44,305 nucleotides of DNA from a virus, in the IMG/VR virus record IMGVR_UViG_3300038553_000012, positions 1-44,305 of that record; one strand, written 5' to 3'. Positions 1 to 41,401 of the stretch are shown piece by piece. The notes beneath the pieces are model-generated. The model searched no databases. It saw only the letters and a list, made by a program, of their open reading frames with translations, and was not told the DNA's origin. The position numbers and the translations under genes are program-made. Every line of letters starts with the position of its first letter. The stretch's first letter is position 1.

Positions 1-1236
1 TCAAGCCGCCCTCTTGCCAGGGCCCTTCCGGACCACCGCCTCGCTTGCCGACTTCTGGTGGTCGGGATGGTGGTGGCCGTAGACGCGCTCGAGCATCTCG
101 ACCGACATCCCCAGGAACCCCGCCGCCGACCATAGAACCGCGCCGTTCTGCATCATCCACGTCGCAGCGGTATGCCTCAGTACGTGGGGCGTGACGTCAG
201 GCCCGAGGCCGGCGGCTTTCACGGCGGCAGCGAACCCCTTGTTGATCTGCCCGATCGGCTCGCCCTGGTACTCGACAACGAACTGCTTCGAGATCGTCTT
301 GCCGTCCGGGCGCACTTCCGCCCAGCGTTTCATGTGCGCGACCAGGCGGTCGGGCATCCTGATCGACGGCTGCCGCTTGTTGGTCTCCGCAACACCCACG
401 CGCCGGCGGTAGAACACGCCGTTCTCCAGGTCGACGTAGCCGGAACCCTCACGCTTGCTCAGCGCGGCGCTGCAGATCGCCGATGCACGCGTCCCGGAAT
501 ATAACCCGACAAGGATGAACCGGGCGATGTGGCGCCACCGGTACTTCTTGGTAGGTACGCCGGGACCCTTGTCGCCCTTGCGGCTGCGCGTCTGTACTTC
601 CTTGGTGCGCCAGCACACCCACAGCAGGCGGGCCGCTTCCTCGCGGGTCAGCCACCTGTCCTTGCTCGGGGACTTAGGCGGCAGCGGCACTTCGATCACG
701 TCGCGGCAGTAGCCCTCGTGGCGATGGTGGTTGATCGCTGCCCTGAGGTCCTCGAGCTCGCGGCGGACGCCAGCCTCGGTGACCAGGCGCGGCGGGTTGC
801 CCGTCTTATCCGGCCTGGCTGACTTCCAAGGCTGGCCGACGCGGAATTTGACGTATGCGCGGCACGACTTGCCATTGACGTCGGCCAGGGTCTTCCCCGC
901 CCACCAGGACCCCAGCGTTTGCAGGGTGGCGTCGGTCTTCCAGGGACGGGCATGGTTCGGCACGACTTCGGTGGCATAGAGCGCAAGGACGTCGGTCACC
1001 AGGACGCTAGACGCCGGAAGGTCCTTCTCCCGGTCGCGGTCGCCGTCGTGCTTGTCCAGAAGGTAGGCGGCTAGCGCGGCTTCCGCGCCCGCGTGATCCG
1101 TTGGAGCGCAGCCAGTGAAGAAGCTGCGGCTTCCGTCACGGATGATCCAAGTTGATTTCTTCCGGACGGCGCCCGTGGCCTTGTCGATTTCGCTGGGCTT
1201 GAGCCAGAGCCTTGCGCCCTTGGACTTCCTTGGCAT
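1..1236 (-). CDS. int: Tyrosine recombinase (phage integrase)
   Basis: Site-specific recombinase of 411 residues that would integrate and, with a directionality factor, excise the phage. The catalytic C-terminal half is clear: a first arginine in SGTRAS near residue 250, the box HVLRH at 351-355, and the nucleophile tyrosine in ERVYGHHHPD near residue 386. The N-terminal part holds an arm/SAM-like DNA-binding region. The frame stays open upstream for 82 more codons, but the ATG at 1236 is preceded by a GGAG ribosome site at good spacing and the upstream residues are Arg/Pro-rich noise, so I use the short form. The gene reads leftward, away from the putative attP and the divergent DUF262 gene. 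The family is certain; the start is likely. Confidence 0.95.
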   Translation of the reverse strand: MPRKSKGARLWLKPSEIDKATGAVRKKSTWIIRDGSRSFFTGCAPTDHAGAEAALAAYLLDKHDGDRDREKDLPASSVLVTDVLALYATEVVPNHARPWKTDATLQTLGSWWAGKTLADVNGKSCRAYVKFRVGQPWKSARPDKTGNPPRLVTEAGVRRELEDLRAAINHHRHEGYCRDVIEVPLPPKSPSKDRWLTREEAARLLWVCWRTKEVQTRSRKGDKGPGVPTKKYRWRHIARFILVGLYSGTRASAICSAALSKREGSGYVDLENGVFYRRRVGVAETNKRQPSIRMPDRLVAHMKRWAEVRPDGKTISKQFVVEYQGEPIGQINKGFAAAVKAAGLGPDVTPHVLRHTAATWMMQNGAVLWSAAGFLGMSVEMLERVYGHHHPDHQKSASEAVVRKGPGKRAA

Positions 1237-1511
1237 GCTGTTCTCCAGGCGCGGAGCGCGGTGATGGTGACGAGGATGCGGCTGCCGTGGCGCTCGTGCA
1301 CAAGGTCGCCGGAACGCACCACGGACCGCAGCCGGTACATCGATACGGATCCGTTGAGCTCCGGCAATCCATGTAGTTGACGAAGGGTTAACGGCGCGTC
1401 GAGGTGCGGACCGGCAGCGGTTTGAGGTACTGGGGTGGGTGCAATGCCTTGCCCGTAGACGACGGGGAAGCCGGTGTACCAAGTTACGATGGGCGCGAAT
1501 CCAGAGCTCAT
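1071..1511 (-). CDS. Possible excisionase-like small HTH protein overlapping int
   Basis: This 146-codon frame lies directly upstream of int and overlaps its first 165 bases. Residues about 40-90 resemble the winged-HTH pattern of Xis/AlpA-type proteins: a leading LTLRQL, a helix with MYRLRSVVRSGDLV, then a basic strand ending in ITALRAW. The part overlapping int (from about residue 92) is Arg/Ser/Ala-rich and looks like a shadow. Either the true product ends in overlap or the C-terminus is not functional. No clear Shine-Dalgarno sequence precedes the ATG at 1511. A directionality factor just upstream of int would fit the context, but the call is tentative. Confidence 0.35.
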   Translation of the reverse strand: MSSGFAPIVTWYTGFPVVYGQGIAPTPVPQTAAGPHLDAPLTLRQLHGLPELNGSVSMYRLRSVVRSGDLVHERHGSRILVTITALRAWRTACQGSPRAQGSGSSPAKSTRPRAPSGRNQLGSSVTEAAASSLAALQRITRARKPR

Positions 1512-3875: not shown

Positions 3876-4753
3876 GGCTGCGCTCCGGACGGACGCGGCA
3901 CCGGCTGGCCCAGGTCGACGACGAAAGACGGATCGAAGCCGTTATCCCTTTCCGCCGGCACGAAGGCATAGCCGCGCGGGTTCGCGATGATCCTGGTGCC
4001 GCCGACTACATAGTCGCGGTGCTGGTGGATATGCCCGTGCACCCACAGGTCCGGAGCATGCTCGCCCTCGAGCAGCGTCCCTAGGTGCGACGCGTAGCAC
4101 CAGTCGAGGCGTCCACCATGCCTCAGATCCAGGCTTCCCGGATGCGGCGCATGGTGTGTGATGACGACGGTTTGCCCGTCGAACGGCTGCGCTAGCTCGG
4201 CCTCGAGGAAGGCGCGGGTTGCTCGGTGCGCGGCTATCGTGTCCTCCGGGCGGAGGCGCTTCCTCCGGGTCGGGTCCTTCGTCGACCATCGCTTGATCGC
4301 GCGGTAGTCGGTCATGCCACGGGCCCCTGCGGCCTCGGCAATCTTGGCCCGTAGATCACCCCGCCCGACAGTCATCATATCCGTCCAGAGCGTGCCGCCC
4401 AGGAACCGGGTGCCGGCGACTGTCACGCTGTCGTCCATCAACAGATCGATGCCCAGCTTGTAGGCAAGCTCGCGGCCCGCATCCATCTGCTCGCCCATCG
4501 TGTACTGCTGTCCCTCGCCGACGAAGAAGTCATGGTTGCCAGGCGTGTAGAGGACGGGCACACCGGAGAACCGGTCCGCGATCCACTGCAGCGACTTCGT
4601 TAGCGGGACATCGATGTCACCGCACAACACGACGACATCGAAGCCCTCCGCCGGTACGTGGTCGGCAGGGTCGAACCGGGTGTGCGGATCGTCCTGGACG
4701 CCGGGCTCGCGGCGGAATTCCTGGTGCAGGTCACTCATCGTCCACAGGCGCAT
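3872..4753 (-). CDS. Second, larger metallophosphoesterase
   Basis: A 293-residue protein with calcineurin-like motifs: SDLHQEF at the N-terminus, CGDID, GNHDFF, THHAPHP and the terminal GHIHQH. The spacing differs from the neighbouring 193-residue enzyme, so they are distinct family members rather than a recent duplication. ATG 4753 is preferred because GGAG lies 6 bases upstream; ATG 4759 or an upstream in-frame start at 4807 are alternatives. Roles for phage enzymes of this kind include nucleotide or nucleic-acid processing; nothing here fixes the substrate. Confidence 0.88.
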   Translation of the reverse strand: MRLWTMSDLHQEFRREPGVQDDPHTRFDPADHVPAEGFDVVVLCGDIDVPLTKSLQWIADRFSGVPVLYTPGNHDFFVGEGQQYTMGEQMDAGRELAYKLGIDLLMDDSVTVAGTRFLGGTLWTDMMTVGRGDLRAKIAEAAGARGMTDYRAIKRWSTKDPTRRKRLRPEDTIAAHRATRAFLEAELAQPFDGQTVVITHHAPHPGSLDLRHGGRLDWCYASHLGTLLEGEHAPDLWVHGHIHQHRDYVVGGTRIIANPRGYAFVPAERDNGFDPSFVVDLGQPVPRPSGAQP

Positions 4754-4810
4754 CGTCATCTCCACTGTTAAGGTACCCACCCTGCGGGATCCGCCAGCAA
4801 GGGACACGCG

Positions 4811-8744: not shown

Positions 8745-9088
8745 CCTGGTCTTTCCTATTGCCGCCCGCATGATGCGCGGCGGCTTCGGAAGTCACGATG
8801 ATCTCGATCCAGAACGGACACAAGCCTTTGTAATTGCTTCGAAATTCAAATTATCAGACCCGAAAACAGGGGGATGCGATCCCTACCCTTGTACGCGGAT
8901 ATGAGAACACGGCGACGCGCTACAGAGGCGCTGGCCCCTCTCGATGAGTATGAGTCCATTCCACGCTCCGAGCCCGCCAGCGGCCTTCCCGTGCGGCCGC
9001 CTGTTCACGCACCTGTGATCGCCTGGTGCGATGCTGGTTCCTTGCTGCGGGGTCAGGCACCTTGTGAGAGGCAACAGAGGAGACTGGA
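8745..9088. promoter_or_regulatory. Divergent intergenic region
   Basis: This 344-base gap must hold the leftward promoter of the 8744-3294 operon and the rightward promoter of the 9089 gene. An AT-rich stretch at about 8828-8860 surrounds a TTCGAA palindrome and is the best candidate for promoter and operator, but no clean sigma-70 pair is visible. CGCACC (9008-9013) and GGTGCG (9025-9030) form a 6-bp inverted repeat before the rightward gene. No convincing coding sequence is present. Confidence 0.5.
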
Positions 9089-11721: not shown

Positions 11722-11894
11722 TGCCTAATCTGCCCGAGCAGTCCCGTTGCCTCTTCATACGCCATCACGTTGCGCAACGCCGATCCGGTGATTTCCCCGC
11801 GGCGTCACGCGAATAGATGTTGTGGGTCGCCGACGGCGGCCGTACACTCCATCTTGTGTCGGGCTTTGGGGCTCGACGTTGATCTTCAACTGAC

Positions 11895-13059: not shown

Positions 13060-13635
13060 ATGACCACCGCGCGCAAGCCCAAGAAAGCTCCGAGTCCCGG
13101 ACGCCCGCCGACAGGGAACTCGGGTACCCGGCTGATTTCCATGAACGCTATGGCCGAACTGGTCGGTGTCGACCGTTCCGTCGTGACGAAGTGGTGCAAG
13201 CTCCGCGAGGATCCCTGCCCCACCGTCCACAATCCGGACGATGGTTCCGGCAAGGGTTGGGTGTTCGACTTCCACGAGGTCTGGCGCTGGCACGAGAAGC
13301 ACGTCCGCCAGTCCGCGATCAACGCCACGCTTGCGGCGCACGGCGGGCCGGAAGGCGAATTGCTGGACTGGGACGAGCGGACCAAGCGCGCCCGCGCGAT
13401 CGACAAGGAACTCGACCTCGGGGTGAAGCAGGGCGACCTGCTGTTCGCGGAGGATGTCGCGGCGAAGCGGGACGAGGAACACGGGCGGTTCGCCCAGGAG
13501 CTGAGGTCCATCCCGGCCAAGGCCGCCAAGGACATCAACCCCCGCGACCAGGGCCGCATCCAGGGCATCCTCGAGCGGTACCACGACGCTGCGTTGGCGC
13601 GCCTGGCGAAGGGCGGCGACGACGATGTCGAATGA
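13060..13635 (+). CDS. terS: Terminase small subunit-like protein
   Basis: A 191-residue protein. An N-terminal winged/Nu1-like HTH (about 27-75: MNAMAELVGVDRSVVTKWCK, then a strand with GKGWVFDFHEVWRWH) is followed by a helical oligomerisation region with WDERTKRARAIDKELDLGVKQGDLL. This is the usual plan of Nu1/DUF1441-like small terminase subunits, which bind the packaging site and recruit TerL. The ORF overlaps terL by 11 bases. ATG 13060 lies after a GGGA sequence; upstream in-frame codons look non-coding. Confidence 0.82.
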   Translation: MTTARKPKKAPSPGRPPTGNSGTRLISMNAMAELVGVDRSVVTKWCKLREDPCPTVHNPDDGSGKGWVFDFHEVWRWHEKHVRQSAINATLAAHGGPEGELLDWDERTKRARAIDKELDLGVKQGDLLFAEDVAAKRDEEHGRFAQELRSIPAKAAKDINPRDQGRIQGILERYHDAALARLAKGGDDDVE

Positions 13636-15778
13636 ACGGCTGCCGGTTGCCCACTTCCGCAAGCTCTTGCCCGAGGCTCAGGCCCGCCTGAAGGAAGTCG
13701 TGGTCGCGACGTGCAAGGCCATCTTCACGCCCGAGCCCTTCGAGCCGGCGGACACTTGGGCCGAGGGCAACATCGAGCTGCCGCCCGAGGTATCGGAGCA
13801 AGGCGGCTACGTCAGGCTGTTCGGTTTCCAGCGGGAACTGGTGCTCGCCCCGTTCGAGCCCGGCGTCCGGGTGGTGACCGTGATGAAGTCCGCCCGCGTG
13901 GGTTTCACCCTGCTCATGGCGATCCTGCTGCTGTACGTCGCCGCCAAGCGCAAGTTCGACGCGTTCCTGGCGCAGCCGATCGCGAGCGATGCCCACGAGT
14001 TCCACGACGACTTCCTCCAGCCGATCATCAACCACTCCCGGACGTTGGCACCGCTCAAGCGGGTGCACGTCCGCGGCGGCATCCAGGACCGCTGGTACAA
14101 GTTCCGGCTGATCACCGGCGCCGCGATCCGCCTCGTCGGCGCCCAGAAGGCCGACGTGTTCCGCCGGTTCAAGGCGTTCATCGGCATCCTCGACGAGGTC
14201 GACGCGAAGGCCTACGGGTCGACGCGCGAGGACGACCAGGGCAACAAGATCGAGCTCGCCGAGCGCCGGCTCGACACCTATCCCGGTTCGGCACTGGTGA
14301 TCGGCGGGACACCGACCGACCTGAAGACGTCGCGGCTGGTCAAGTACTTCGACATGTCGGAGCAGCGCCGCTACTTCTGGCCGTGCCAGCGGTGCGGTGC
14401 CTTCCAGTACCTGATCTGGGGCGACCGGGCATCCCCGACCGGGTTCAAGTGGACGCTGGACGAGACCACCGGCGAGGTGAGGGACGTCCACTACAAGTGC
14501 CTGCACTGCGGCGGCAGGATGGAGGAGGACGAGAAGGCCGTCATGGACCAGCAGGGCGAGTGGCGCGTCACCCGCCCCGGCAAGCGTTCAGGCTACCGCG
14601 CGTACCACATATGGGAGGCGTACGGCTTCAACCCGAAGTCCACTTGGACCGTGATCGTAGAACGCTTCCTCGAGGCCGTCCGGTCCGGCGACATGCAGCC
14701 CTTCGTCAACCTGTCGCTGGGCGAACCGCACGAGGACCGCTCCGGCATCCGCCTCGAGCCCCACATGCTTGCCGCCCATTGCCGTCCGTACGAGGCGGAG
14801 GTCCCGGGCGACGTGATCGACTGGACCTGGGGCGTCGATACCCAGAAGGGCAGCAGCAAGGAGAACAGCGACGGCAGCCTCATCGCGCCGCAACGCCACG
14901 AGGCCGCGGCATGGGGATGGGGTCCGGGGAACAAGCCGATCCTCCTCGGCTACTTCGTGCTGCCGTTCGAGGGCGAGCCCTTCGTCGGCGAGTCCGCGGC
15001 GAAGCTGGATGCCCTGCTGTTCCGCAAGTTCACCCGCAAGGACGGGACGGAGGTGCCGATGGCGGCGGCGTTCCTCGACGGCGGCCACGCTCAGGACGCG
15101 GCCATCGCCTACGTCAAGGCCAGGGTGGAGCTGGGCTGGGAGGCGCTGCACGTGGTCCGCGGATCGAAGTCCAACGACCCGCACGCGCCTGTCATCATGA
15201 CCCGCAAGGGCAAGTCGAACCGAACGGGTGACGAGTTCTTCTGGCTGAACCTGCGCCCCGCCAAGGACCACCTGGACCGGTTGCTCAAGGTGCAGACCCC
15301 TGGTCCTCGGTACGTGGAGTTCCCGGAGAGCATGCGTGGCAACGAAGCGTTTTTCAGCGGACTGCTGAACGAGACCTTGAGGCCCGAACGCAAGGGCGGA
15401 GCATTGCGCTGGCTCAAGGAAGGAAGCGCGACAGGCGAGCCATGGGACACGCTGGTGTATGCCTATGCCGCGCAGATCCGCGCCCAGCAGATGTACCAGG
15501 CCATCGACCGCAAGGTAGGCGAGGCCCGATCGCCCTTTTCTGTCACAACGCCCGAGGCGGATGGTGTCGTCCAAACGTACGATGGACCGGATCGCTCAGC
15601 CATGGCCGACAAGTCAGAACAGCGCGGGCTCGTCGCCCCGACGCGGTCACAGCCGCCGCAGACTGCCGCCCGCGTCCAGCGCGGCAACGTACCCGCCGGC
15701 GTGCCGCAACAGGCGCAGGAACTCGGTAGCCTTCAGCGCCGAGGCCCCGTCCGCGCCAGGAAGAGCTCGGTGTACTGA
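13625..15778 (+). CDS. terL: Terminase large subunit, GpA family
   Basis: A 717-residue packaging ATPase/nuclease. It has a Walker A-like KSARVGFT at 88-95, Walker B ILDEVD at 188-193, a zinc-finger insertion with C254/C257 and C292/C295, and a nuclease domain opening with WGVDTQKG (D405). GpA-type enzymes usually cut at cos and leave cohesive ends. The last about 80 residues after the IRAQQMYQAIDRK helix are low-complexity (Pro/Gln/Arg) and begin at a copy of the dispersed late element, so this tail may be a late accretion. The stop overlaps the gpW-like start (TGATG). Confidence 0.95.
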   Translation: MSNERLPVAHFRKLLPEAQARLKEVVVATCKAIFTPEPFEPADTWAEGNIELPPEVSEQGGYVRLFGFQRELVLAPFEPGVRVVTVMKSARVGFTLLMAILLLYVAAKRKFDAFLAQPIASDAHEFHDDFLQPIINHSRTLAPLKRVHVRGGIQDRWYKFRLITGAAIRLVGAQKADVFRRFKAFIGILDEVDAKAYGSTREDDQGNKIELAERRLDTYPGSALVIGGTPTDLKTSRLVKYFDMSEQRRYFWPCQRCGAFQYLIWGDRASPTGFKWTLDETTGEVRDVHYKCLHCGGRMEEDEKAVMDQQGEWRVTRPGKRSGYRAYHIWEAYGFNPKSTWTVIVERFLEAVRSGDMQPFVNLSLGEPHEDRSGIRLEPHMLAAHCRPYEAEVPGDVIDWTWGVDTQKGSSKENSDGSLIAPQRHEAAAWGWGPGNKPILLGYFVLPFEGEPFVGESAAKLDALLFRKFTRKDGTEVPMAAAFLDGGHAQDAAIAYVKARVELGWEALHVVRGSKSNDPHAPVIMTRKGKSNRTGDEFFWLNLRPAKDHLDRLLKVQTPGPRYVEFPESMRGNEAFFSGLLNETLRPERKGGALRWLKEGSATGEPWDTLVYAYAAQIRAQQMYQAIDRKVGEARSPFSVTTPEADGVVQTYDGPDRSAMADKSEQRGLVAPTRSQPPQTAARVQRGNVPAGVPQQAQELGSLQRRGPVRARKSSVY
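15520..15550 (+). promoter_or_regulatory. Dispersed late element, copy 2, inside terL
   Basis: The core at 15528-15550 differs from copies 3 and 4 by one base in the T-run (TTTTCT). Upstream GGCGA pairs with TCGCC around a 7-base loop to give a short hairpin. It lies in frame within the 3' part of terL (codons about 635-642) and precedes the gpW and portal genes by about 230 bases. Unlike the other copies it is translated. Confidence 0.7.
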
Positions 15779-29709: not shown

Positions 29710-29731
29710 GAAGCTAAAGGGCGATAGCTTC
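29710..29731. terminator. Bidirectional hairpin between tail and primase genes
   Basis: GAAGCTA (29710-29716) pairs perfectly with TAGCTTC (29725-29731) around an 8-base loop, between two convergent genes and containing the stop codon of the primase-helicase. No strong U-tract on either side, so termination may be partial. Confidence 0.55.
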
Positions 29732-32700
29732 GCTTTCCATGTAGTCTTCCAGGATCGTCCTGGCAGGCGGCGCTTCGGCCTTGGGCTCGGCGATCCCGTG
29801 GATCAGAGCCTGCGACGAGAGCCAGAGCTTGACCTGCGCCAGCTCGCCCGGGCCCGCCGGGTGCTTGCCCTTGGACGGGATGTACAAGCTCTCTGCCGAT
29901 AGCCGCTCGACCGCCTGCTCGAGGCCGAGGCGCTCGCGCTTCCGGCGATCGTCGATCGATCCGGCTTCGGTCATGAGATCGTCCACTGGACGGGGCGCCG
30001 CCGGTTCGACGCGCTCGGCCTGGCGAACGAGGACGGGAGCGCCGGCATGGGGGATGTCCGCCCATTTAAGCGCCGCCACGACCACGGCGACCGGGTTGCT
30101 GATATAGCCGGGCACAGCGCACGGGACCCGCTTGCCTTCGGCGTTCGTCCAGTCGACACGCGAGAAGCGTTCGCCCAACTGCATCGGCAACCCGTGCAGC
30201 ATTTCGCGGAACTGCTTCGGCGTCCCGATGTCGTCTCGCTGGTCGGCAGCGGTCACCGCGTCGATGATGCCCGAGGTCATGCGGCACGCCTCTAGCAGCG
30301 GCTGGTACGACGGGCGCAGGTCCGAGCCGGAGCAGATCTCGTCGACGATCAGGCCCTCGGGAATGCTCTGGCAGAACAAGTACACGGTCGGGGCGTCGGA
30401 CCGGTAGACCGGACGGACACGACACAGGGCCTGCATGATCCCTTCCTCGCGGAACTGCTGCTGCACGATCCGGAGCCACCCCGCCGGGTTGCGAGCGGTC
30501 AGTAGCCCGAGGTCAGCACCGTCGCGGCGGCGTATCGGCACAACGTCGAGCGTGGGCTTGAGCCTCTCGCCCTTGTCGTCGAGGCCGGTGCCGAGCGGGT
30601 CGAGCAGGACGAGCGGGTCGGTGTCGCCCGCCAAGGCGCAGGCGAGGCCGTCATACATCCACGTTGGCAATTCCATGCGACCGATGATCACCGCAGCGAC
30701 GTGCCTTTCCGCGAAGTTCAGGCCGCGTTCCGCTCCATAGTGAATCCAGTCCAGGTTGCCAGGGCAAACCCAGTCGGCGTTGATCGCCCGCCGGACAGCG
30801 CGGCTGGCGCAAGCCACGATCCGCCCGTTCGCGTGGACGGCGGACAAGAAGACCAGGCGGTCCCGGATACTCTCGAGGTTGGCGGCGCACGCAGCTCGAA
30901 CCGCAGGCTCGGCGCTTGCGTTGCAGATCATCGATGACTGCGAGTACCGCTTGTCGACCACCGCAACCACGCGACAGTTCATGTCGGCTTCGATCACGTG
31001 CATCTTCACTTCGCGATCGGGGAATATCGCTTGCACGATTCCCTTGTCAGCTGAGGCATCAAGCAGCAGCACGGGTGCGGCGCTCCAATTCGGCTCGGTG
31101 ATCCACGAGATCCGCACGTTCTGGTGGTCGACCCCATTCGCGGCGAAGCACCTCAGCTGTATGTCCTTGTTCTTGGGCGGCAGCGGCTTGCCGTCGGCCA
31201 GACCCTCGATACGGTCGCGGATGATCGACCAGAATCTCCACTCCTCGCGGACGTGCTTGCCGGCGGGAGCCTCGCAGATCGCCGCAAGGTCGTAATCGGA
31301 CATGCCGGGGAAGATGGCGCCGGTCGCCGCGCTCGCTCCGCCGTTTACCCGGACGGCTGCCGCGGCGAGATCCAGGCCGGTGATGGTTCGCTTGGGCCGG
31401 ACATCGGTGAAAGCGGCCAGAGCGGCGATCGGGCACTGGCCGCTCTCGAGCGCGCGGGTCGCGATCCATGCGGCTTCGTCTCGCATGCCCAGCAGGTCGT
31501 CCGGCGTCATACCCAGCTCGGCCTCGGCCTTCGTCAGCTTGGGTTCTCTCCTCGGACGGCGCAGGGCGTCGAGGCTGAATTCCGTCGTGTGCACGAACAT
31601 GGAGAAAATGCGTTCGTCGGCGATGACGCCCCGGATCCGTTGGAGTTCCTCGGGGATCGATAGGCTCATGAACGCATGCGGCAGGAACACGATGTGCTGC
31701 TCGGCGATCTGCTTGCGCTGCTCGATAGCCGGGCATCCGCGATAGTGCGGGCAGTACTCGTCCCGGTATTCAAGAGGCGTCCCTTTGGGGGTACCGGGTA
31801 GCGGTTTCTTCGGCACGCGCGCATGGCACAGGCCCGACGATCCCAGGCCGGCGGCGGAGAGCATCGCCACCTTTTCCGCCAACTTGCAGCCCGCCGCGAT
31901 CTTGCCCTGGTAGACCATGGTGCGGAGCTTGCTGCCCGTCGCCGTAGCGCGGATGCGCTTGATCTCGACCAGCGCGTCTTCGACGGACATCAACCCCTTG
32001 GCGGCTGCCGCTTCGGCCAGGTCCTCGTCTTCCAGCGCCGGATCCAGTCCGATCACGACGGCGCGCGCCCGCAGTTCGCTGATGTTGTTGTAGGTGGGCA
32101 GCAGGAACACCAGCGGCCCCGGACGCTCGTCCGGCGGCAGCTCGTCGAACATGTAGGTGCGAGGGTCGGCGGCAATGTACTTCAGGGTCTGCGTCGTTTT
32201 TCCCGACCCGGCCGGGGATGCCAGAACATGGACTTGGGCTCGCAGGCCCTGCTCGGTTTGGTAGACGCGGTCGAAATACATATCGAGTGCCTGGGCGATC
32301 TCGAGGTCGACACGGATGGAGACCTCGCTCCGGTCGGGCTGGAGCGCACGAGATGCGGCGATCACGGCGTCGGGCATGGTGGCGGACGCGAAATCCAGGG
32401 CGCGACGCTTGTCGCGGGCCGGCAGGTGCCACAGGGCTGGGTCCTGGGCCGGGGCGGCTTGCTCGACGAACGAGCGGGTAGCGACGGCCTTGCCGTTGGC
32501 CATCTTGCCAGTGCCCAGGAACTTGTATCCGCCGGCGGCCAGCAATGCAGTGTTGCGGCGCAGGCGGTCGCTGACCTCGTTCCGCAAGGGAGTGCCGTCG
32601 CTCCAGCGATCGGTCAGGATCATGTGCTCGCGGCAGAAGGCCATGATGACCTCGACGCCTGCGGCCATTCCTGCCGGGTTCGGCTCCCAGGTACCGTCCA

Positions 32701-33625
32701 CGAGTAGTGTAGCCACCCGGCCCGGGTTCTGGCGGACGGTCTCGAACACGAGCTTAGTCAGCCACGGCTCGCGACCGTCTGCCAACCTGTCACCGTCTAT
32801 GGAGGGAACCGACCATCCGTCGATGGAATCCATCGCGCCGTCGAACGCCGCTGACAGGATGGATGCAGCCTTGGCCTTGAACGGCAGCGCCTCCTTCACT
32901 GCATCGATGAAGCGCTGCATCTGCTCGGGCGAGACGACAGGGCAATGCTCCGGGCCGTAGATGACGGGAGGCTTCCCGCCGAACCACGTGAAGTACTTGC
33001 CGGTCTTGTGGTGCTGGCCATAGGCGGTGATCGACTTGCCCCGGGACAGGACCTCGATCTGGTCCCCGCCGTCCTCGATCACGTACGCCTTGTTGGGTGG
33101 GAGGTCCCGGGGAGTCGCCGTCCGGTAGAAGAGCGCGATCTTGGGATCCGTGCCGACGCGCTGGAACGAGGTCTCGCCCAGGATCCCCTTCGCCAGGTCC
33201 TGCACGGTGCGCGACTGGTCCGGGTTCGAGAGGTCGGCATCGATGCAGAACGTATTTCCGCTCGATGCTCCCAGCAGGATAGCCGCGTTGGAGCCAGACG
33301 CGGCCAGGCTCCAGCGCCGGGTCTCCTTCGGGCTCGGTGCCTTGTCGAAGTACTTGCTGATCTTGATCGCGCGCTTGTCGACCATCGACGGCATGCGGCG
33401 TTCGTCGCGTTCCTGGGGGTACACCGCCCAGCCGCGGGCGCGCATGTCCACGGCGACGGCGCCGAACAGGGATTCCCCGATCATGTACATCTGCTCGACC
33501 GAACCAGGTGTCGGGCCGGTGTCGGGCTTGCCGGACAGGACGGAGATATCAGCTAGCGAAAACATCGGCTCGCGCTTGGCGGGAGCGGCGGGCGGAATGA
33601 CGGCGCGGGTGGGTCTACGCAGCAT
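29714..33625 (-). CDS. Primase-polymerase / helicase replication protein
   Basis: A 1,303-residue replication protein. The N-terminal part has archaeo-eukaryotic prim-pol signatures: FCIDAD near residue 130 (metal-binding aspartates) and ITAYGQHHKTGKYFTW near 200. Next is a linker with PriCT-like helices. The helicase part starts with Walker A ASPAGSGKTT at about 470 and has a DE-box, VIADER, near 667. A cysteine cluster with CPHYRGC lies in between (about 610-640). The product is likely a self-contained primase and helicase for phage DNA. ATG 33625 is chosen; an upstream in-frame ATG at 33703 adds Arg-rich residues, and ATG 33565 is an alternative. Confidence 0.85.
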   Translation of the reverse strand: MLRRPTRAVIPPAAPAKREPMFSLADISVLSGKPDTGPTPGSVEQMYMIGESLFGAVAVDMRARGWAVYPQERDERRMPSMVDKRAIKISKYFDKAPSPKETRRWSLAASGSNAAILLGASSGNTFCIDADLSNPDQSRTVQDLAKGILGETSFQRVGTDPKIALFYRTATPRDLPPNKAYVIEDGGDQIEVLSRGKSITAYGQHHKTGKYFTWFGGKPPVIYGPEHCPVVSPEQMQRFIDAVKEALPFKAKAASILSAAFDGAMDSIDGWSVPSIDGDRLADGREPWLTKLVFETVRQNPGRVATLLVDGTWEPNPAGMAAGVEVIMAFCREHMILTDRWSDGTPLRNEVSDRLRRNTALLAAGGYKFLGTGKMANGKAVATRSFVEQAAPAQDPALWHLPARDKRRALDFASATMPDAVIAASRALQPDRSEVSIRVDLEIAQALDMYFDRVYQTEQGLRAQVHVLASPAGSGKTTQTLKYIAADPRTYMFDELPPDERPGPLVFLLPTYNNISELRARAVVIGLDPALEDEDLAEAAAAKGLMSVEDALVEIKRIRATATGSKLRTMVYQGKIAAGCKLAEKVAMLSAAGLGSSGLCHARVPKKPLPGTPKGTPLEYRDEYCPHYRGCPAIEQRKQIAEQHIVFLPHAFMSLSIPEELQRIRGVIADERIFSMFVHTTEFSLDALRRPRREPKLTKAEAELGMTPDDLLGMRDEAAWIATRALESGQCPIAALAAFTDVRPKRTITGLDLAAAAVRVNGGASAATGAIFPGMSDYDLAAICEAPAGKHVREEWRFWSIIRDRIEGLADGKPLPPKNKDIQLRCFAANGVDHQNVRISWITEPNWSAAPVLLLDASADKGIVQAIFPDREVKMHVIEADMNCRVVAVVDKRYSQSSMICNASAEPAVRAACAANLESIRDRLVFLSAVHANGRIVACASRAVRRAINADWVCPGNLDWIHYGAERGLNFAERHVAAVIIGRMELPTWMYDGLACALAGDTDPLVLLDPLGTGLDDKGERLKPTLDVVPIRRRDGADLGLLTARNPAGWLRIVQQQFREEGIMQALCRVRPVYRSDAPTVYLFCQSIPEGLIVDEICSGSDLRPSYQPLLEACRMTSGIIDAVTAADQRDDIGTPKQFREMLHGLPMQLGERFSRVDWTNAEGKRVPCAVPGYISNPVAVVVAALKWADIPHAGAPVLVRQAERVEPAAPRPVDDLMTEAGSIDDRRKRERLGLEQAVERLSAESLYIPSKGKHPAGPGELAQVKLWLSSQALIHGIAEPKAEAPPARTILEDYMESEAIAL

Positions 33626-33837
33626 TTGGGCTCTCGATCTTCGACCGGCCTCTGATCGGGCCGTGTGGATTCGGAGTGTTCGGCGGATCGCGGAAAGGCG
33701 CAACGGAAACTATCCTTCGAAAGTCCAAGCATCTGGCGCTGCTGGGAAACGGCATCGACGTTCAGCCACCCGACCGCGGGTGCGGCGGATTGTCACGTTT
33801 TCGTGGTGGAACAAACGGCGCTTTTCGTTTGCGCGGT

Positions 33838-34218: not shown

Positions 34219-34881
34219 ATGCCGTTCCGTCTCGGACCCTCATCCCGCCAGAAGCTCGAAGGCGTCCACCCCCACCTGGTCGCCATCGTCGAACGCGCGA
34301 TCGAGATCAGCACCGTCGATTTCCGCGTCATCGAGGGCCTGCGTACCGTCGAGCGCCAGCGAGAGCTGGTGAAGTCCGGCGCCTCTACCACGATGAACTC
34401 CCGTCACATCCGTGCCGACAACGGCCTGGGCCACGCTGTCGACATCGTGCCGCTGGTCAACGGCAAGGTCTCCTGGGACTGGCCGCTGTTCTACCCGATC
34501 GCCGCCGCGATGAAGCAGGCCGCGAAGGAACTCGGGCTCAAGCTCGAGTGGGGCGGTGACTGGAAGAGCTTCAAGGACGGCCCCCACTGGCAGTTGCCGT
34601 GGAAGCCCTACGCATCGGGCGCCAAGGCGGTCGCGTTCGAAAAGCCCATCTCCAGCCGCACCACCAGCCAAGCCAACAACCAGGAAGCCACCGCCATCGG
34701 TGCCGCCGGATCCGTCAGCGGCGGGGTCGTCGCCGGCGACAGCCTGGCCGCGGTCACCGACGTCATCTCCGGACAGCAGCACGAGCTGTCGTCCGGGGAC
34801 TGGGTCCGCATCGCCGTCGCCCTGGTGATCCTTGGCCTTACCGTCTGGGGCGTCATGTCCAAACTCAGGAGCAAGCAGTGA
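34219..34881 (+). CDS. Endolysin, M15 peptidase with C-terminal membrane anchor
   Basis: A 220-residue lysin. The M15 (L-alanyl-D-glutamate/VanY-like) motif is visible: SRH at 61-63, GHAVDIVP with the metal-binding aspartate D75, WGGDW at 111-115 and PHW with H123. The spacing between SRH and D has about five extra residues compared with common P5-like enzymes. Residues 130-190 are a flexible linker, and 195-212 a transmembrane helix with a basic tail. The strong AGGAGG start and the following lysis genes fit late expression. Confidence 0.88.
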   Translation: MPFRLGPSSRQKLEGVHPHLVAIVERAIEISTVDFRVIEGLRTVERQRELVKSGASTTMNSRHIRADNGLGHAVDIVPLVNGKVSWDWPLFYPIAAAMKQAAKELGLKLEWGGDWKSFKDGPHWQLPWKPYASGAKAVAFEKPISSRTTSQANNQEATAIGAAGSVSGGVVAGDSLAAVTDVISGQQHELSSGDWVRIAVALVILGLTVWGVMSKLRSKQ

Positions 34882-35093: not shown

Positions 35094-35323
35094 GCGAGTT
35101 CTACCTGGTCGAGAAGACTACCGAACCCCGCAACCACTTCCGCCTGGTGGACGGGCCGCACGCCACCCGCGCCGGCGTCGAGCAGGCATCGTTTATCCTG
35201 AAGGCGATCGGCGTGCAGAAGCGCAAGACGGTCTACCTGTGCGCGGAGGTCACGCCCGTCGAGGCCAAGCCGCACGACGTCGACTTCGAGGCCCTGGCCC
35301 AGTGCGCGAGGATGGTCACGTGA
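35090..35323 (+). CDS. Hypothetical lysis-module protein
   Basis: A 77-residue soluble protein starting in an ATGA overlap with the holin stop and ending in overlap with the Rz-like gene. It contains EFYLVEKTTEPRNHFRLV and VYLCAEVTP. No signal peptide or membrane helix. Unrecognised; it might regulate lysis or simply hitchhike. Confidence 0.62.
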   Translation: MSEFYLVEKTTEPRNHFRLVDGPHATRAGVEQASFILKAIGVQKRKTVYLCAEVTPVEAKPHDVDFEALAQCARMVT

Positions 35324-35670
35324 TCTCCCGCATCCAGGCCGCCGCGGCAGGTATAGTCATCCTCCTCGCCGTCGCCGGCATCGGCGCGGTGTGGGGGCTC
35401 TCGTCCGCACTGCAGTCCTCATGGGACGAAAACAGCGAGCTCGCCTCCGAACTGGAGGGCGCCCGCACCCTCCTTTCCGCGGAACGCGACCGCCACTCCC
35501 GCACCCTGGACGCATTGGCTGCCGAACGCGCATTGGCGGATATCCGCCGGGCAAGCGTGCAGACCGCCCGCGATGCCATCCTTGCCGCCCCTCCATCGGA
35601 GGACGGGCCCGTAGCCCGGGTCGTCCTGCGCGCCATGGAAGCGGCGGACCAGATTGGAGGTGTCCCGTGA
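35320..35670 (+). CDS. Rz: Rz-like inner-membrane spanin
   Basis: A 116-residue protein: an N-terminal membrane anchor (AAAAGIVILLAVAGIGAVWG, about 7-26) followed by a long periplasmic coiled coil (ENSELASELEGARTLLSAERD). This is the i-spanin plan. The GTG start overlaps the preceding stop, and the end overlaps the Rz1 lipoprotein gene. Together they would fuse inner and outer membranes at the end of lysis. Confidence 0.82.
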   Translation: MISRIQAAAAGIVILLAVAGIGAVWGLSSALQSSWDENSELASELEGARTLLSAERDRHSRTLDALAAERALADIRRASVQTARDAILAAPPSEDGPVARVVLRAMEAADQIGGVP

Positions 35671-36268: not shown

Positions 36269-36480
36269 GCCGAACCGCTCCGGACTGGGAACAACGCGTT
36301 CGCCGGCGCCCGGCCCCGGATGAGGTCGCCGATCTGATCAGGACCCACGGGTGGGAGGCTGCGGAAGAGCGGTGGTCGTGGCTCGGGCACCGGAGCCTGC
36401 TGCTCATATTGAACAAGGCACGTCGAATGGATCCCGACCAAGTACCCGAGGACTACGATGTCCCCGACCTCGAGCCCTAG
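36265..36480 (+). CDS. Small protein with ERWS motif, paralogue of the 6.8-kb gene
   Basis: A 71-residue protein whose middle, PDEVADLIRTHGWEAAEERW then LLLILNKARRM, matches the pattern of the 105-residue zinc-ribbon protein at 6757-7074 (EVARI...YG...ERWS..W...L..LA...R). It lacks the cysteines. It ends the lysis operon and converges with the restriction endonuclease gene, overlapping it by four bases. Function unknown. Confidence 0.68.
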   Translation: MSRTAPDWEQRVRRRPAPDEVADLIRTHGWEAAEERWSWLGHRSLLLILNKARRMDPDQVPEDYDVPDLEP

Positions 36481-37505
36481 TCGAGCAGCGGAGCCGGCGC
36501 GACTGGTTTCCTGACCTTCGTGCGCCGCGACTGCAGCTTCAGCTCGAACTCGGACAAGGTCGTCGGGCTGCCTGCAGTCAGGCCCTTGACGCTGTCCTCG
36601 AGGGTGGTCATCACGGTGCTGTCGATAACCAGCGTCGCCTCGCCGGGCTTGATCGTCTCGTCGAACCTCACGACGACCCAAATGATATCGCAGTTCGAAA
36701 TGTCGTCGACCTGCTCCATCTTGTCCATGGCGTCGAGGAAGGGCCGGTCGATCAGTACCACCATCTTCTTGCCCCACCGACGCAGCGTCGGCACCTTGAT
36801 CAGCAGCTGCGGCATCAGCCGTTTGGGACCGCTCGACCGGAAGTCGGGACGTCGCGCTCCCCCGGGGAAGGGCACGCCGTTGGCGTTGACACCCATGGAT
36901 TTGATCTCGGCGTTGTCGTCGGCCATCTTGGCGCCGCTGAAATAGACTGCCTGCATCTCGACGGCACACCAGTTCTTCGGGTCTTCCGGATGGGCGAACA
37001 CCAGGTCGATCCGCCCCACGTCCTCCTTGGCGTTGTCCTCGCCGTCCTCCTCGATCACCTCTTCCTCGTGGTCCTCCTCGTCCGTGGCCGCGACGGCAAC
37101 GGCGGCAACCGGATCCTTCGGCCTGCGGAGGAACGGGATCTCCTTGGCGATCACCGGATCGTCGGTGCCCAGCACGAGCCCGGCGATATGGCGGACGATG
37201 ACGCCCTCCTCGATGAAGCGGTTGGGGCATGTCGACGTGATGGGACCGAAGGAGATGTCCTCGCCGTCACGCTGGAAGTTCCGGATAGAGCAGACGCCGC
37301 CGCGCTTGTTGCAGTTCGTCTTGCCCGACTTGGGCCCCAGGGCCGGCACCTGCAGGAAGAACGGGCACGGCATCTCCGTATTCTTCTTGCCTAGCAACTC
37401 GAGCCGACGCGACTGCGGCATGGACTGGAACGACTCCCCGTACCACTCCGCGCGTCCGTAGAATTGCTTGTGCTTGACCGGTGCAGGCTTCTTCGATTTC
37501 CCCAT
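36477..37505 (-). CDS. NotI-family restriction endonuclease
   Basis: A 342-residue endonuclease matching NotI. The four metal-binding cysteines C47 (PCPF), C65, C72 (GGVCSIRN) and C93 (CPNRF) reproduce the NotI iron-binding fold. The PD-(D/E)XK active site is D167 (GRIDLVF) with E183 and Q185 in VEMQAVYFSG, as in NotI's LEIQ. An acidic insertion (141-164, DEEDHEEEVIEED) separates them. It lies four bases after the methyltransferase gene, consistent with a complete type II system. The recognition site is probably GC-rich but not readable from sequence. Confidence 0.85.
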   Translation of the reverse strand: MGKSKKPAPVKHKQFYGRAEWYGESFQSMPQSRRLELLGKKNTEMPCPFFLQVPALGPKSGKTNCNKRGGVCSIRNFQRDGEDISFGPITSTCPNRFIEEGVIVRHIAGLVLGTDDPVIAKEIPFLRRPKDPVAAVAVAATDEEDHEEEVIEEDGEDNAKEDVGRIDLVFAHPEDPKNWCAVEMQAVYFSGAKMADDNAEIKSMGVNANGVPFPGGARRPDFRSSGPKRLMPQLLIKVPTLRRWGKKMVVLIDRPFLDAMDKMEQVDDISNCDIIWVVVRFDETIKPGEATLVIDSTVMTTLEDSVKGLTAGSPTTLSEFELKLQSRRTKVRKPVAPAPLLD

Positions 37506-37509
37506 GCAC

Positions 37510-38673
37510 CTATGCGAACGCCATTTGCCCCTGATTCTGCAAGGGGTGCCCCGCCTCGTCCACTGTCATGGACGCGGAATGGATCACGGCCTCGGCGATC
37601 GCGCGGCCCAGGAGCGGCGGCACGGCGTTGCCCACCTGCACGTATTGCTCGGTGCGGCTGCCCAGGAACTCGAACGTGTCGGGGAAGGCCTGCAGGCGCG
37701 CGGCCTCGCGGACGGTCAGGGCACGGTCCTGCTCGGGATGGATATAAGCGCCCCAGTGGACGTCGCATTTCGTCAGGATAGTGCACGACAGGTCGGTCTT
37801 GCGCGGGCGTCCGTAACGCTTCGTGTGGTCGCTGCGCTTCGCCCTCTTCATGCCCTCCGGAAGAAGGTCGAACGGGATGTCGCGCCAGCTGCCGCCGGCG
37901 GGGATGTGCTTCATGCGGTCGAGGTTCACGGAGGACAGGCGTGAGGCCGTGTGGTTCGGCACGCGGTTCGCGCCGGCGCGCAACTCGCGCTGGTAGTCGT
38001 TCATGGGGCCGGTGGCGTATTGGTCCACGCCCTTCATGTCGCCGTTCTCCAGCGGAGCCAGGTCGCCGATGGCATCCCAGATCGTCACGTATGGCAGCAG
38101 GCCCGGACCGTGCGTCGGCTTCGGGTGCACGATCGGCGCGCCAGTGCGGTTGGCGATGAACACGATCCGCCGGCGCTCTTGTGGCACGCCGTACTCCTCG
38201 GCCTTCAGGATCTTCCACTTCACCTTGTAGCCGAGGGCGTGCATGCCCTCCTCGATCTCGCGGATGATGCCGCCGTCGGCGATCGACGTCAGGCCGGCGA
38301 CGTTCTCCATCACGAGCCACTTGGGCATTAGGCCCTTCACGATCCGTAGGTACTCGCGGAACAGCCCGGCGCGCGGGTCGTCGACGCCGCGCCCGTGGTT
38401 GTAGACGGAATAGCCCTGGCACGGCGGACCGCCCACCAGGACCTCAAGCTCGCCCTTCTTGAGGCCGGTGGCGCGCAGGAAGTCGGCCACGCTGAGGTTC
38501 TGGATGGGACCGCCCAGGAACTTGGCTTCCGGGTGCGTGGCGGCGAACGTCTTGCCGGCTGCGGGGTCGTAGTCCGAACCGGCGAGCACGTGGAAGCCCG
38601 CCTGGCGGAATCCCTCGCTTAGGCCGCCGGCTCCGCAGAATAGGTCTACGACCGTCCTGTCCTTACGCATCAC
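37510..38673 (-). CDS. C5-cytosine DNA methyltransferase
   Basis: A 387-residue Dcm-type methyltransferase with ordered motifs: I DLFCGAGGLSEGF near residue 10, IV with the catalytic Cys in GGPPCQGYS near 85, VI ENVAG near 122, VIII QERRR near 166, IX with REAARLQAFPD near 318, and X QVGNAVPP near 345. The target-recognition region lies between VIII and IX. It protects DNA from the neighbouring NotI-like enzyme and may also mask phage DNA. ATG at 38673; an inverted repeat operator lies 39-56 bases upstream. Confidence 0.95.
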   Translation of the reverse strand: MMRKDRTVVDLFCGAGGLSEGFRQAGFHVLAGSDYDPAAGKTFAATHPEAKFLGGPIQNLSVADFLRATGLKKGELEVLVGGPPCQGYSVYNHGRGVDDPRAGLFREYLRIVKGLMPKWLVMENVAGLTSIADGGIIREIEEGMHALGYKVKWKILKAEEYGVPQERRRIVFIANRTGAPIVHPKPTHGPGLLPYVTIWDAIGDLAPLENGDMKGVDQYATGPMNDYQRELRAGANRVPNHTASRLSSVNLDRMKHIPAGGSWRDIPFDLLPEGMKRAKRSDHTKRYGRPRKTDLSCTILTKCDVHWGAYIHPEQDRALTVREAARLQAFPDTFEFLGSRTEQYVQVGNAVPPLLGRAIAEAVIHSASMTVDEAGHPLQNQGQMAFA

Positions 38674-38711
38674 TTCATCCCGCCTGTGGCCGCACCCCAG
38701 TACAAACCGGG

Positions 38712-38729
38712 AACGGTTAACAAACCGTT
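38712..38729. promoter_or_regulatory. Palindromic operator candidate upstream of the methyltransferase
   Basis: AACGGTT (38712-38718), a 4-base spacer, then AACCGTT (38723-38729): a perfect 7-bp inverted repeat in the 148-base gap between vsr and the methyltransferase. Related half-sites (ACCGGTT) occur at about 38739-38745 and 38774-38780. It is well placed to control methyltransferase-first expression, perhaps by autoregulation. Confidence 0.5.
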
Positions 38730-38821
38730 ATCTAGCGGACCGGTTGCGCCCAGGCCAATCACGACTTCGACGCACCGGTTTTGATTCTTGGGGACGATCG
38801 TAACACGCCGATGGTCCCGCG

Positions 38822-39271
38822 CTACCCAGGAATTTCGGTCGAAACCCTGCCATGCGCAAGCCAGCCGGCGGCGGTTTCCACTGTCCATTCCAGACCAGGT
38901 GCGCCCTTTCCGCGAAGGCAACACTCCCAGACCGTGAGGCTGCGCCATCCCATTGCGTCCAGCGCCGCGACGGCCGCCGTGTCCCGCGCGCGGGTGCGCC
39001 CTATCTTCGGGCCCCAGTATTCCACCCGCGACAAGGGCACCCGGGCGGCGCCGCAATCGTGCCCGTGCCAGAAGCACCCGTTGACGAACACGACTGCCTT
39101 GTACCTGGGGAACACCATGTCCGGTTTCCCGGGAAGGCCGCCAGCATGCAGCCGGTAGCGGAAACCGAGCGCGTGCAGTCCCCGCCTTACCGCCAACTCG
39201 GGCTTGGTGTCCTTGCCCTTGATCGCCGCCATGTTCCGGCTGCGGACCTCGGGCGTCAGCTTGTCGGTCAT
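38822..39271 (-). CDS. vsr: Very-short-patch repair endonuclease Vsr
   Basis: A 149-residue mismatch endonuclease. Hallmarks: the N-terminal RSRNMAAIKGKDTKPE, LPGKPDMVFP with the catalytic Asp, and NGCFWHGHDCG with the catalytic histidines. Vsr corrects T:G mismatches arising from deamination of 5-methylcytosine and is usually linked to C5 methyltransferases, as here. This suggests the methylation is stable enough in lysogens to need repair. Confidence 0.95.
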   Translation of the reverse strand: MTDKLTPEVRSRNMAAIKGKDTKPELAVRRGLHALGFRYRLHAGGLPGKPDMVFPRYKAVVFVNGCFWHGHDCGAARVPLSRVEYWGPKIGRTRARDTAAVAALDAMGWRSLTVWECCLRGKGAPGLEWTVETAAGWLAHGRVSTEIPG

Positions 39272-39571: not shown

Positions 39572-39818
39572 CACCACCTCCCAGCACGTCCTCCGCTGCC
39601 GCGATGCCGACCTCGGCCAGTGCGTCCCGGACGGATGAAAGCCACGGCTCGCTCGCGCCGGCGGTCAGCAGGGCGCGGATCGTGATCGGTCCGGGCGCCG
39701 ACAGCGCCGCTTCCGCCAACGTTCGGGTCCGTTCGTCAGCCAGGCGCGCGACCTGGCCGACGACGACACGGTACATCCCCGCCGCGAGACGGCGGTCTTG
39801 CTCCAAGATCACCATCAT
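39564..39818 (-). CDS. Small partner of the AAA+ ATPase
   Basis: An 84-residue helical protein starting in an ATGA overlap with the AAA+ gene stop. It contains a middle LADERTRTLAEAALSAP and LTAGASEPWLSSVRDALAEVG, without catalytic residues. The overlap suggests it is made in concert with the ATPase and may be its adaptor or effector. Unrecognised. Confidence 0.65.
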   Translation of the reverse strand: MMVILEQDRRLAAGMYRVVVGQVARLADERTRTLAEAALSAPGPITIRALLTAGASEPWLSSVRDALAEVGIAAAEDVLGGGDD

Positions 39819-41401
39819 GCCCTCCCCAGGATGGCATCGCGCCCGTCGAGCATGATCTCGATCGACATCCGGAGCCGGCGCAGCGAGCCGCCCGGCCATG
39901 CTCCCTTGATGACATCGATCTCGTCTTCCGCAAGCGGCGGGTACCACCGGGGATCGACACCGCGTTCGCGGGCTATGTCCTCCACGATCTGCCCGACCAG
40001 CGTGCCCAGGTGGGACCACGTTGGATCCGGCATGCGCAGGATACGCATGCGGTCGCGGAGCGGAGCGGGGATTGCCGAGAGCGAGTTGGCTGTGGCGAAG
40101 TGGCTGATCATCGACAGATCGACCTCGACCTCGAGGCACAGGTCGCGCATGCGCCTGGCTTGGTGCGGCTCGAGGTACGGAAGCAAGGCTTCCATGGCGT
40201 TCCCGTTCTCGGTCCGCGTCCCGATCTTCTCGATCTCGTCCCAGATCATCGCGCCGTTTGCCTCCCGCGACCGCTTGATCAGCTGCAGTGGCACGCTCTC
40301 GCGGGCCGTGCTCCACTGGGCGGAAGTCCCCATCATGCTGGCGTCGGACTGCCCCGCCATATTGTACGCCTCCGACTCCAGGCCCACCGCATCGGCGATC
40401 GCGCGGAGCAATGCGGTCTTGCCCGAGCCCGGCTCGCCGACGAGCAGCGTAGGCCGGAACCGGACCGGACCGCCGAGCGCAAGGTCACCCATGATCACGT
40501 GGATCAAGTCGCGGGCATGCGGCCACCGCGACGACAGGTCGGCGGCGATGCCCGCGACGTCGCCGACCTGGACGAGAGGCAGCTCCACGCCGGCGATGCC
40601 GATCCATGACTTCCGGTTGTCGCGCACGTTGGAATTGCCGCCCTTCGGATCGAGCGGCGGCACGACGAGCAACGAGGTCTTCGGCAGGACAGGCATGCCG
40701 AGGTACTCGTCGGGGATCCCGTCCTCGACCTCCTCCCTTTCGATCTCGGCGCGGTCGTCCATGACCGCCGCGATATCTCCGAAGAGTTCCTCAAGCTGGA
40801 CCTCGGTGGCATCGCCTAGCTGCAAGCGCTCCATTGCGCCGTTCAGCCGATCGGACAACTGCGACATGCGCCGCATGGTCGCGATGCCCTGCTCGAAAAC
40901 CCGGTCCACGTCACGAACGTCGACGTAGCCGGGCTTGCCTCCTCGCGTGGAGTATCGCGTCAGCCCCAATGCCATCGCGATCGGCAGAGCCGACTTGCTG
41001 ATGTCGTCCAGCCGAACGTCTTCGAAGCCGCGGCGGATCGTGCGGTCACGTCCGATCGGATCGCCCAGCCAGCAGGCGTACAGGTCTAGCCGGCGCGCGG
41101 CGTGGTTGCTGCTGTGCTCGAGGGAATCGGACGCAGACCGAAGGGTCGTGTGGGTGGGATTGTCGCGGGCAAGCTGCAGCGCCTTGCGGCACTTGGGGAT
41201 ATGGTCCGGCTCCAGGAGTTGAGTTTCGATCCATGTCTGGATATCGAGCAGCATGTCGCCCTTGTGGAAGGGCAAGCCACGCTGCAGCTCTTCGAAGCTC
41301 GTGAAGGCACCCTTCCCCGCGAGGATCTCGTCGCGGCGGGTGGCGTGGCTCTGTAGGGAAAGGGTGTCGAGGCGCAGTTGCGCGAGGTCGGTATCGTTCA
41401 T
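39815..41401 (-). CDS. Lon-like AAA+ ATPase without a protease domain
   Basis: A 528-residue ATPase. The AAA+ module occupies about 310-500, with Walker A VGEPGSGKT near residue 321 and Walker B AMIWDEIEKIG near 386, the latter very similar to Lon's LLDEIDK box, followed by a sensor-1-like ATANSLS and arginine-finger RDRM. The N-terminal 300 residues are helical and unlike Lon's. No Ser-Lys protease domain follows. Such proteins may act as remodellers in replication, defence or assembly; context (with the defence-like block) makes a defence role possible but unproven. Confidence 0.8.
   Translation of the reverse strand: MNDTDLAQLRLDTLSLQSHATRRDEILAGKGAFTSFEELQRGLPFHKGDMLLDIQTWIETQLLEPDHIPKCRKALQLARDNPTHTTLRSASDSLEHSSNHAARRLDLYACWLGDPIGRDRTIRRGFEDVRLDDISKSALPIAMALGLTRYSTRGGKPGYVDVRDVDRVFEQGIATMRRMSQLSDRLNGAMERLQLGDATEVQLEELFGDIAAVMDDRAEIEREEVEDGIPDEYLGMPVLPKTSLLVVPPLDPKGGNSNVRDNRKSWIGIAGVELPLVQVGDVAGIAADLSSRWPHARDLIHVIMGDLALGGPVRFRPTLLVGEPGSGKTALLRAIADAVGLESEAYNMAGQSDASMMGTSAQWSTARESVPLQLIKRSREANGAMIWDEIEKIGTRTENGNAMEALLPYLEPHQARRMRDLCLEVEVDLSMISHFATANSLSAIPAPLRDRMRILRMPDPTWSHLGTLVGQIVEDIARERGVDPRWYPPLAEDEIDVIKGAWPGGSLRRLRMSIEIMLDGRDAILGRA

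Follow-up and report, generated by a model that had tools for sequence, protein, structure and literature searches.

How does a prophage that carries a restriction enzyme keep methylation ahead of cutting? For restriction-modification (R-M) systems this is a standing question, posed both by entry into a new cell and by fast replication, and the known answers include C proteins, autoregulation of the methyltransferase and antisense control. We studied a locus that suggests a different answer, a three-gene cassette encoding a NotI-family endonuclease, a C5-cytosine DNA methyltransferase and the mismatch endonuclease Vsr, found in the IMG/VR virus record IMGVR_UViG_3300038553_000012. The record is linear and 44,305 bases long; analyzed over its whole length, it is called the window below. 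The explanation that best accounts for the locus, and one that we consider reasonably probable, is a prophage NotI-family R-M cassette lying behind a weak, doubled LexA-type operator, i.e., a putative binding site for the repressor of the SOS response to DNA damage.

The R-M cassette

An earlier note, made from the sequence alone, had described the three genes as one leftward block, and the analysis agreed: they are intact open reading frames (ORFs) of the minus strand, in the transcript order Vsr, methyltransferase, nuclease (Table 1). Each product exceeded the curated cut-off of its Pfam family, with 2.8e-48 for the endonuclease (NotI, 164.8 bits versus a cut-off of 22), 3.2e-68 for the methyltransferase (DNA_methylase) and 9.2e-33 for Vsr (Vsr). 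The codon-position GC bias was strong in all three ORFs, which supports their being real genes.

NotI is known to carry an Fe Cys4 motif and a glutamine in place of the catalytic lysine (PMC4081073). The corresponding residues of the window endonuclease are C47, C65, C72 and C93 for the Cys4 site and D167...E183-x-Q185 for the catalytic site. All seven were unchanged in 9 of 9 homologs from viral contigs and plasmids; in an alignment of 59 homologs, C72, C93, D167, E183 and Q185 were invariant and C47 and C65 were at least 90% conserved, so that the motifs are intact as the earlier note had stated. Sequence profiles were insufficient to link the enzyme to NotI, since those built from its own subfamily did not match the NotI chain in PDB and that of a divergent NotI subfamily matched it weakly; structure comparison settled the matter. 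The alignment of 59 homologs was used to build an AlphaFold model (predicted local distance difference test score, pLDDT, 91), which was searched with Foldseek, and the sole significant PDB matches were the four NotI chains (3c25/3bvq), with E values from 1.3e-9 to 1.2e-6, probability 1.00 and template modelling (TM) scores of 0.52-0.53, the next match having an E value of 0.2. As modelled, the endonuclease has the NotI fold. The model had no significant match among the viral proteins of BFVD, and none of the PHROG and PADLOC profiles matched the endonuclease.

The methyltransferase retains its catalytic motifs FCGAGG, PPCQ, ENV, QERRR and GNAVPP, and only a 4-nt gap separates its gene from that of the nuclease, so both are probably on one transcript. 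The key residues of both proteins are kept. The nuclease with its adjacent methyltransferase thus appears to form the full type II system that had been proposed, and the cassette is predicted from these residues to be enzymatically active. We are highly confident that it is an intact type II R-M system of the NotI family on a prophage.

The third protein scored 147.6 bits against TIGR00632 (cut-off 97.85) and matched E. coli Vsr (1cw0) with an E value of 1.4e-31. It would repair T:G mismatches arising from deaminated 5-methylcytosine (m5C). The suggestion that Vsr is a sign of long-term methylation holds in part: the gene fits a long-lived m5C, but several relatives of the cassette are without Vsr.

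A search for relatives of the gene set in phages had been proposed in the earlier note and proved productive. In seven viral contigs a methyltransferase 65-83% identical to that of the window was found, and in 7 of 7 its gene adjoins one for a NotI-domain protein (four canonical, two divergent, and one partial, L005, which lies at a contig end and falls below the Pfam cut-off); the Pseudomonas phage vB_Pae_U8, described below, adds a further pair. This methyltransferase clade is a dedicated partner of NotI-type nucleases. The nuclease was in turn used to collect 80 genomic loci, at nearly all of which its partner belonged to this C5 clade or was a D12 adenine methyltransferase. The nucleases of loci L009-L010, L016-L092 and L100 are split by partner, C5 or D12, with their own motifs unchanged, a change of methylation chemistry around a single nuclease family. 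The family is rare: of the genomes covered, it was present in 4 of 397 from one order, 10 of 399 from a second order and 6 of 385 across the class.

A candidate LexA operator before the methyltransferase gene

The region upstream of the window methyltransferase contains GTTTGTTAACCGTTCCCGGTTTGTAC (38725-38700, minus strand), which reads as GTTC-N7-GTTC twice over, the two copies overlapping and each having a single mismatch. This motif is the LexA consensus of Caulobacter (PMC12700426). A Devosia prophage presented an exact box, GTTCCTTAACCGTTC, at the position of the second box of the window, and the letters GTTC and TTTGTA did not vary among five upstream regions that have otherwise diverged, those of the window and four relatives.

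A first set, made up of 19 members of the clade with 60% or higher identity of the methyltransferase, was scanned for boxes over the 150 bp preceding the methyltransferase gene. Exact boxes were present in 4 of 19 and boxes with up to one mismatch in 11 of 19, as compared with 0.9% and 9%, respectively, of random windows of the same loci; when spacers of 3 to 12 were compared only spacer 7 stood out, and the observed counts were not reached in any of 1000 simulations matched for composition. A later set comprised 10 further loci that had not been seen when the motif was picked. Here an exact box occurred in 5 of 10 loci versus 0 of 191 control upstream regions (Fisher 1e-7), the controls being the regions upstream of 70 D12 methyltransferase genes and 121 nuclease genes, most of them from other phyla and some of them duplicates of one locus. 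Against a stricter in-locus background (2.9%, the boxes themselves included) the value was 5e-6. The box precedes the methyltransferase also at loci whose nuclease gene is first or convergent (L007, L097, L098, L024 and L096). In three carrier genomes, moreover, uvrA, dinB-type polymerase, ssb and SRAP genes have the extended motif GTTCNNNNTTTGTWC next to them. The gammaproteobacterial SOS box CTGT-N8-ACAG gave no consistent signal in the beta- and gammaproteobacterial relatives.

Several observations weigh against LexA control. The choice of the motif followed inspection of the upstream sequences of the first set, so the later set is the only independent test, and some members of the first set are homologous to one another. 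Both boxes of the window depart from the consensus, and finding one box with a single mismatch in its upstream region is not unusual (p = 0.14). No match to a sigma-70 promoter was found near the start of the operon, where one was looked for. In the three carrier genomes the copies ending in GTAC occur only at R-M genes; this variant may represent weaker repression with a useful basal expression, or the site of a different regulator. Eight of the 19 first-set members have no box, and seven members have an upstream gene for a ribbon-helix-helix (RHH) protein instead: none of the 7 with the RHH gene was boxed versus 12 of the 18 without it (p 0.005). The RHH-like gene, located just upstream of the methyltransferase in L102, L145, L153, L048, L051, L119 and L126, was assigned with Pfam RHH_1 in one tested example and by sequence resemblance in the others, and its product is probably an alternative regulator.

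These points are what sustains the strongest competing explanation, that of an ordinary phage-borne type II system, constitutive or self-regulated, in which the GTTC repeats are sites for the methyltransferase or a phage repressor, or have no binding partner. The imperfect boxes of the window, the restriction of the GTAC variant to R-M genes and the use of an RHH regulator by many relatives all agree with it, but it leaves the recurrence of exact boxes in the independent set, their confinement to spacer 7 and the presence of the same extended motif at SOS genes without a ready account, and we consider it unlikely, if the least so of the alternatives. LexA control is accordingly rated separately at two levels: within the clade it appears likely, and in this particular window the chances are about even. 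An equally balanced estimate applies to a broader proposal, a mobile type II R-M family of Alphaproteobacteria whose methyltransferase may be under the host LexA, such that DNA damage, its own cutting or prophage induction included, would raise protection in a damage-sensing feedback that takes the place of a dedicated R-M regulator.

Recognition site and site avoidance

The earlier note had located at least one NotI site, GCGGCCGC, and had reasoned that if the specificity is NotI-like the phage DNA must be methylated. The site is present and is the sole copy in the window, versus about 6.9 expected from dinucleotide shuffles of the window. Its scarcity belongs to the core, being explained by avoidance of CGGCCG: this hexamer, the most depleted of all, occurs 7 times versus 36.6 expected (z -7.3), and 7 such sites predict 0.96 GCGGCCGC sites by chance. 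There are no copies of CGGCCG between positions 11837 and 32209.

Such figures invite the explanation that the enzyme is a NotI isoschizomer reading GCGGCCGC or its core, and that the phage avoids the site since its own nuclease can cut early in infection. The NotI fold and active site, the depletion of CGGCCG, the presence of M.HaeIII among the closest solved methyltransferase structures, and the pairing of a NotI/EagI-like nuclease with a C5 methyltransferase in a passage on Xanthomonas (PMC4853030) would all suit it. However, carriers G002 and G003, whose methyltransferases are 77-78% identical to that of the window, show no avoidance of CGGCCG and avoid other palindromes instead, even though the region between motifs VIII and IX is strongly conserved in them; NotI itself is distant in sequence (see below); and related nucleases pair with D12 adenine methyltransferases, useless for protecting a site that has no A. 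Since the D12 partner of the sister nucleases needs an A in the site and a pure G/C site has none, we infer that either the specificity differs between the clades or their common site is not GCGGCCGC. The isoschizomer explanation is doubtful, and the conditional claim of a NotI-like specificity did not gain from the single site, which is accounted for by chance, or from an avoidance that is not common to other carriers.

Reading the specificity from site avoidance was an approach that we dropped, because each carrier avoids different palindromes and related carriers do not avoid CGGCCG. In the Ensifer prophage record G003 (L110-L112), for example, the counts were 5 versus 57 for CGATCG, 0 versus 18 for CCGCGG, 0 versus 20 for CTCGAG and 1 versus 17 for GAGCTC. 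The avoidance of CGGCCG in the window may reflect the nucleases of past hosts, and any recognition site assigned to the window enzyme is a putative one. XorII, which has a vsr homolog, was a further candidate model for the specificity.

The last explanation, a decayed or silent remnant whose genes are intact in sequence and either not expressed or not active, would agree with the missing promoter consensus near the operon start but is very improbable given three open frames with strong codon-position GC bias and every key residue retained.

Proposed role of the cassette

With the prophage R-M cassette behind a doubled LexA-type operator as the preferred explanation, the following scheme can be proposed. 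In the lysogen the methyltransferase would mark host and prophage DNA and the nuclease would cut unmarked incoming DNA, so that the lysogen would be defended and loss of the prophage penalised; the earlier note had proposed that such a phage could keep other phages out of the lysogen and make its own loss toxic, and both the exclusion and an addiction through post-segregational killing may reasonably be expected from the biology of type II R-M systems. The methyltransferase-nuclease transcript would begin behind the weak, doubled operator, whose basal leak would provide everyday immunity. DNA damage, self-cutting at under-methylated sites and prophage induction included, would lift LexA and yield more methyltransferase, keeping newly replicated phage and host DNA protected; on induction, the replicating phage DNA would stay marked. 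The window nuclease, located downstream on the same probable transcript, would rise too. According to a review passage on R-M regulation (PMC3874152), self-cutting at under-methylated sites triggers SOS, and LexA control would thereby close a protective feedback loop. Apart from this cited triggering, the scheme, including the binding of LexA and the biological role, is one that we infer. If true, a LexA box before the methyltransferase ties protection directly to the damage that results from failed protection, and in a prophage it couples protection to induction.

Genome context

The location on a phage that the earlier note had assumed is well founded. The window has an integrase together with head, portal, tape measure, terminase, endolysin and Rz-like genes, i.e., the integrase plus head, tail and lysis genes of a temperate tailed phage, and the element is a prophage. 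Its record ends at gene boundaries, matching what an excised prophage call would give. The cassette sits inside the phage genome, because the AAA ATPase gene adjoining it also flanks the cassette of a Devosia prophage (Table 1). Close relatives of the phage itself were not found among the viral contigs searched by terminase, portal or primase. The nuclease-based search of genomic loci gave relatives in Devosia, Ensifer and Falsochrobactrum, so the host is probably an alphaproteobacterium; the Falsochrobactrum relative adjoins chromosomal genes, and phage carriage is thus not universal among the relatives.

Table 1 Positions of the cassette, the candidate operator and other features in the window
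Feature	Position	Strand	Basis or remark
NotI-family nuclease, C5 methyltransferase and Vsr cassette	36477-39271	-	Three intact ORFs
NotI-family (PF12183) type II restriction endonuclease, 342 amino acids (aa)	36477..37505	-	Pfam, conserved residues, AlphaFold/Foldseek
C5-cytosine DNA methyltransferase	37510..38670	-	386 aa from ATG; alternative GTG at 38673
Vsr very-short-patch mismatch endonuclease, 149 aa	38822..39271	-	Pfam, TIGR00632, match to 1cw0
LexA-type box GTTCCCGGTTTGTAC	38700..38714	-	One mismatch to GTTC-N7-GTTC
Second LexA-type box GTTTGTTAACCGTTC	38711..38725	-	One mismatch; overlaps the first box, 11 bp upstream
NotI site GCGGCCGC	8993-9000		Sole copy in window; among only 7 CGGCCG
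Tyrosine integrase (PF00589)	1..1242	-	Left edge of window; marks the element as temperate
Terminase large subunit	13625..15778	+	Phage context
Endolysin	34219..34881	+	Phage context
Rz-like spanin	35317-35670		After endolysin; phage context
AAA ATPase	39815..41401	-	Also flanks R-M genes in a Devosia prophage (41% identity)

Other genes of the window deserve mention. Beside the integrase, at 1706-3290 (plus strand), a gene for a GmrSD_N/DUF262 protein (PADLOC NsnA 1e-66, PD-T4-2_A 4e-44) and an overlapping HEPN_RiboL-PSP gene form a candidate two-gene defence module, so the prophage may hold two defence cassettes. Two calcineurin-like phosphoesterase genes lie side by side at 3294-4807 (minus strand), and in locus L002 of the Devosia prophage a protein of similar look is encoded just before the methyltransferase. 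The product of the gene at 29714-33703 (minus strand) is 1329 aa long; apart from a Prim-Pol domain at its N terminus it has few recognisable features, and the Devosia prophage encodes distant relatives of it (about 30%).

Comparison with known systems

The occurrence of type II R-M systems on prophages and plasmids is established, as a passage of PMC3874152 states. NotI of Nocardia (PDB 3bvq/3c25) shares with the window enzyme the Cys4 site, the PD-(D/E)xK-type core with E-x-Q and the overall fold, but the two are only about 14% identical by structure alignment, and no specificity is assigned to the window enzyme from this likeness. In the R-M system of Xanthomonas oryzae PXO99 a NotI/EagI-like nuclease is directly downstream of a C5 methyltransferase, as in the window; the passage describing it (PMC4853030) does not mention a phage context, Vsr or SOS control. 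Plasmids pBN5 of Paraburkholderia and pSY2 of Sphingobium carry a C5 methyltransferase 48-73% identical to that of the window beside a NotI-family nuclease. All three genes, Vsr included, are present on pBN5 in an orientation that differs from the window, and pSY2 has an RHH regulator upstream. In the Pseudomonas aeruginosa phage vB_Pae_U8 (PP003920), a C5 methyltransferase (47%) is followed by a NotI-domain protein (L101:1767-2669) annotated as hypothetical; unlike the window, it belongs to a divergent NotI subfamily, has no Vsr annotated adjacent to it and no GTTC-N7-GTTC box. This type of cassette was thus already known, since similar sets are carried by plasmids and, without annotation, by a deposited Pseudomonas phage.

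Keyword passages from two reviews, one on R-M regulation (PMC3874152) and one from 2025 (PMC12707154), do not mention LexA-controlled R-M. A targeted literature search for it, which covered open papers so that absence is no proof of novelty, returned only ScmA/VsrA of Caulobacter (PMC12907096), an alphaproteobacterial C5 methyltransferase acting with a Vsr-like protein whose gene has a LexA box. ScmA differs from the window system in being solitary and nuclease-free, and its box lies in vsrA rather than before the methyltransferase. Phage-borne NotI-related R-M is ordinary cargo by these comparisons, and the new point is the SOS-type sequence that recurs before the methyltransferase in Alphaproteobacteria.

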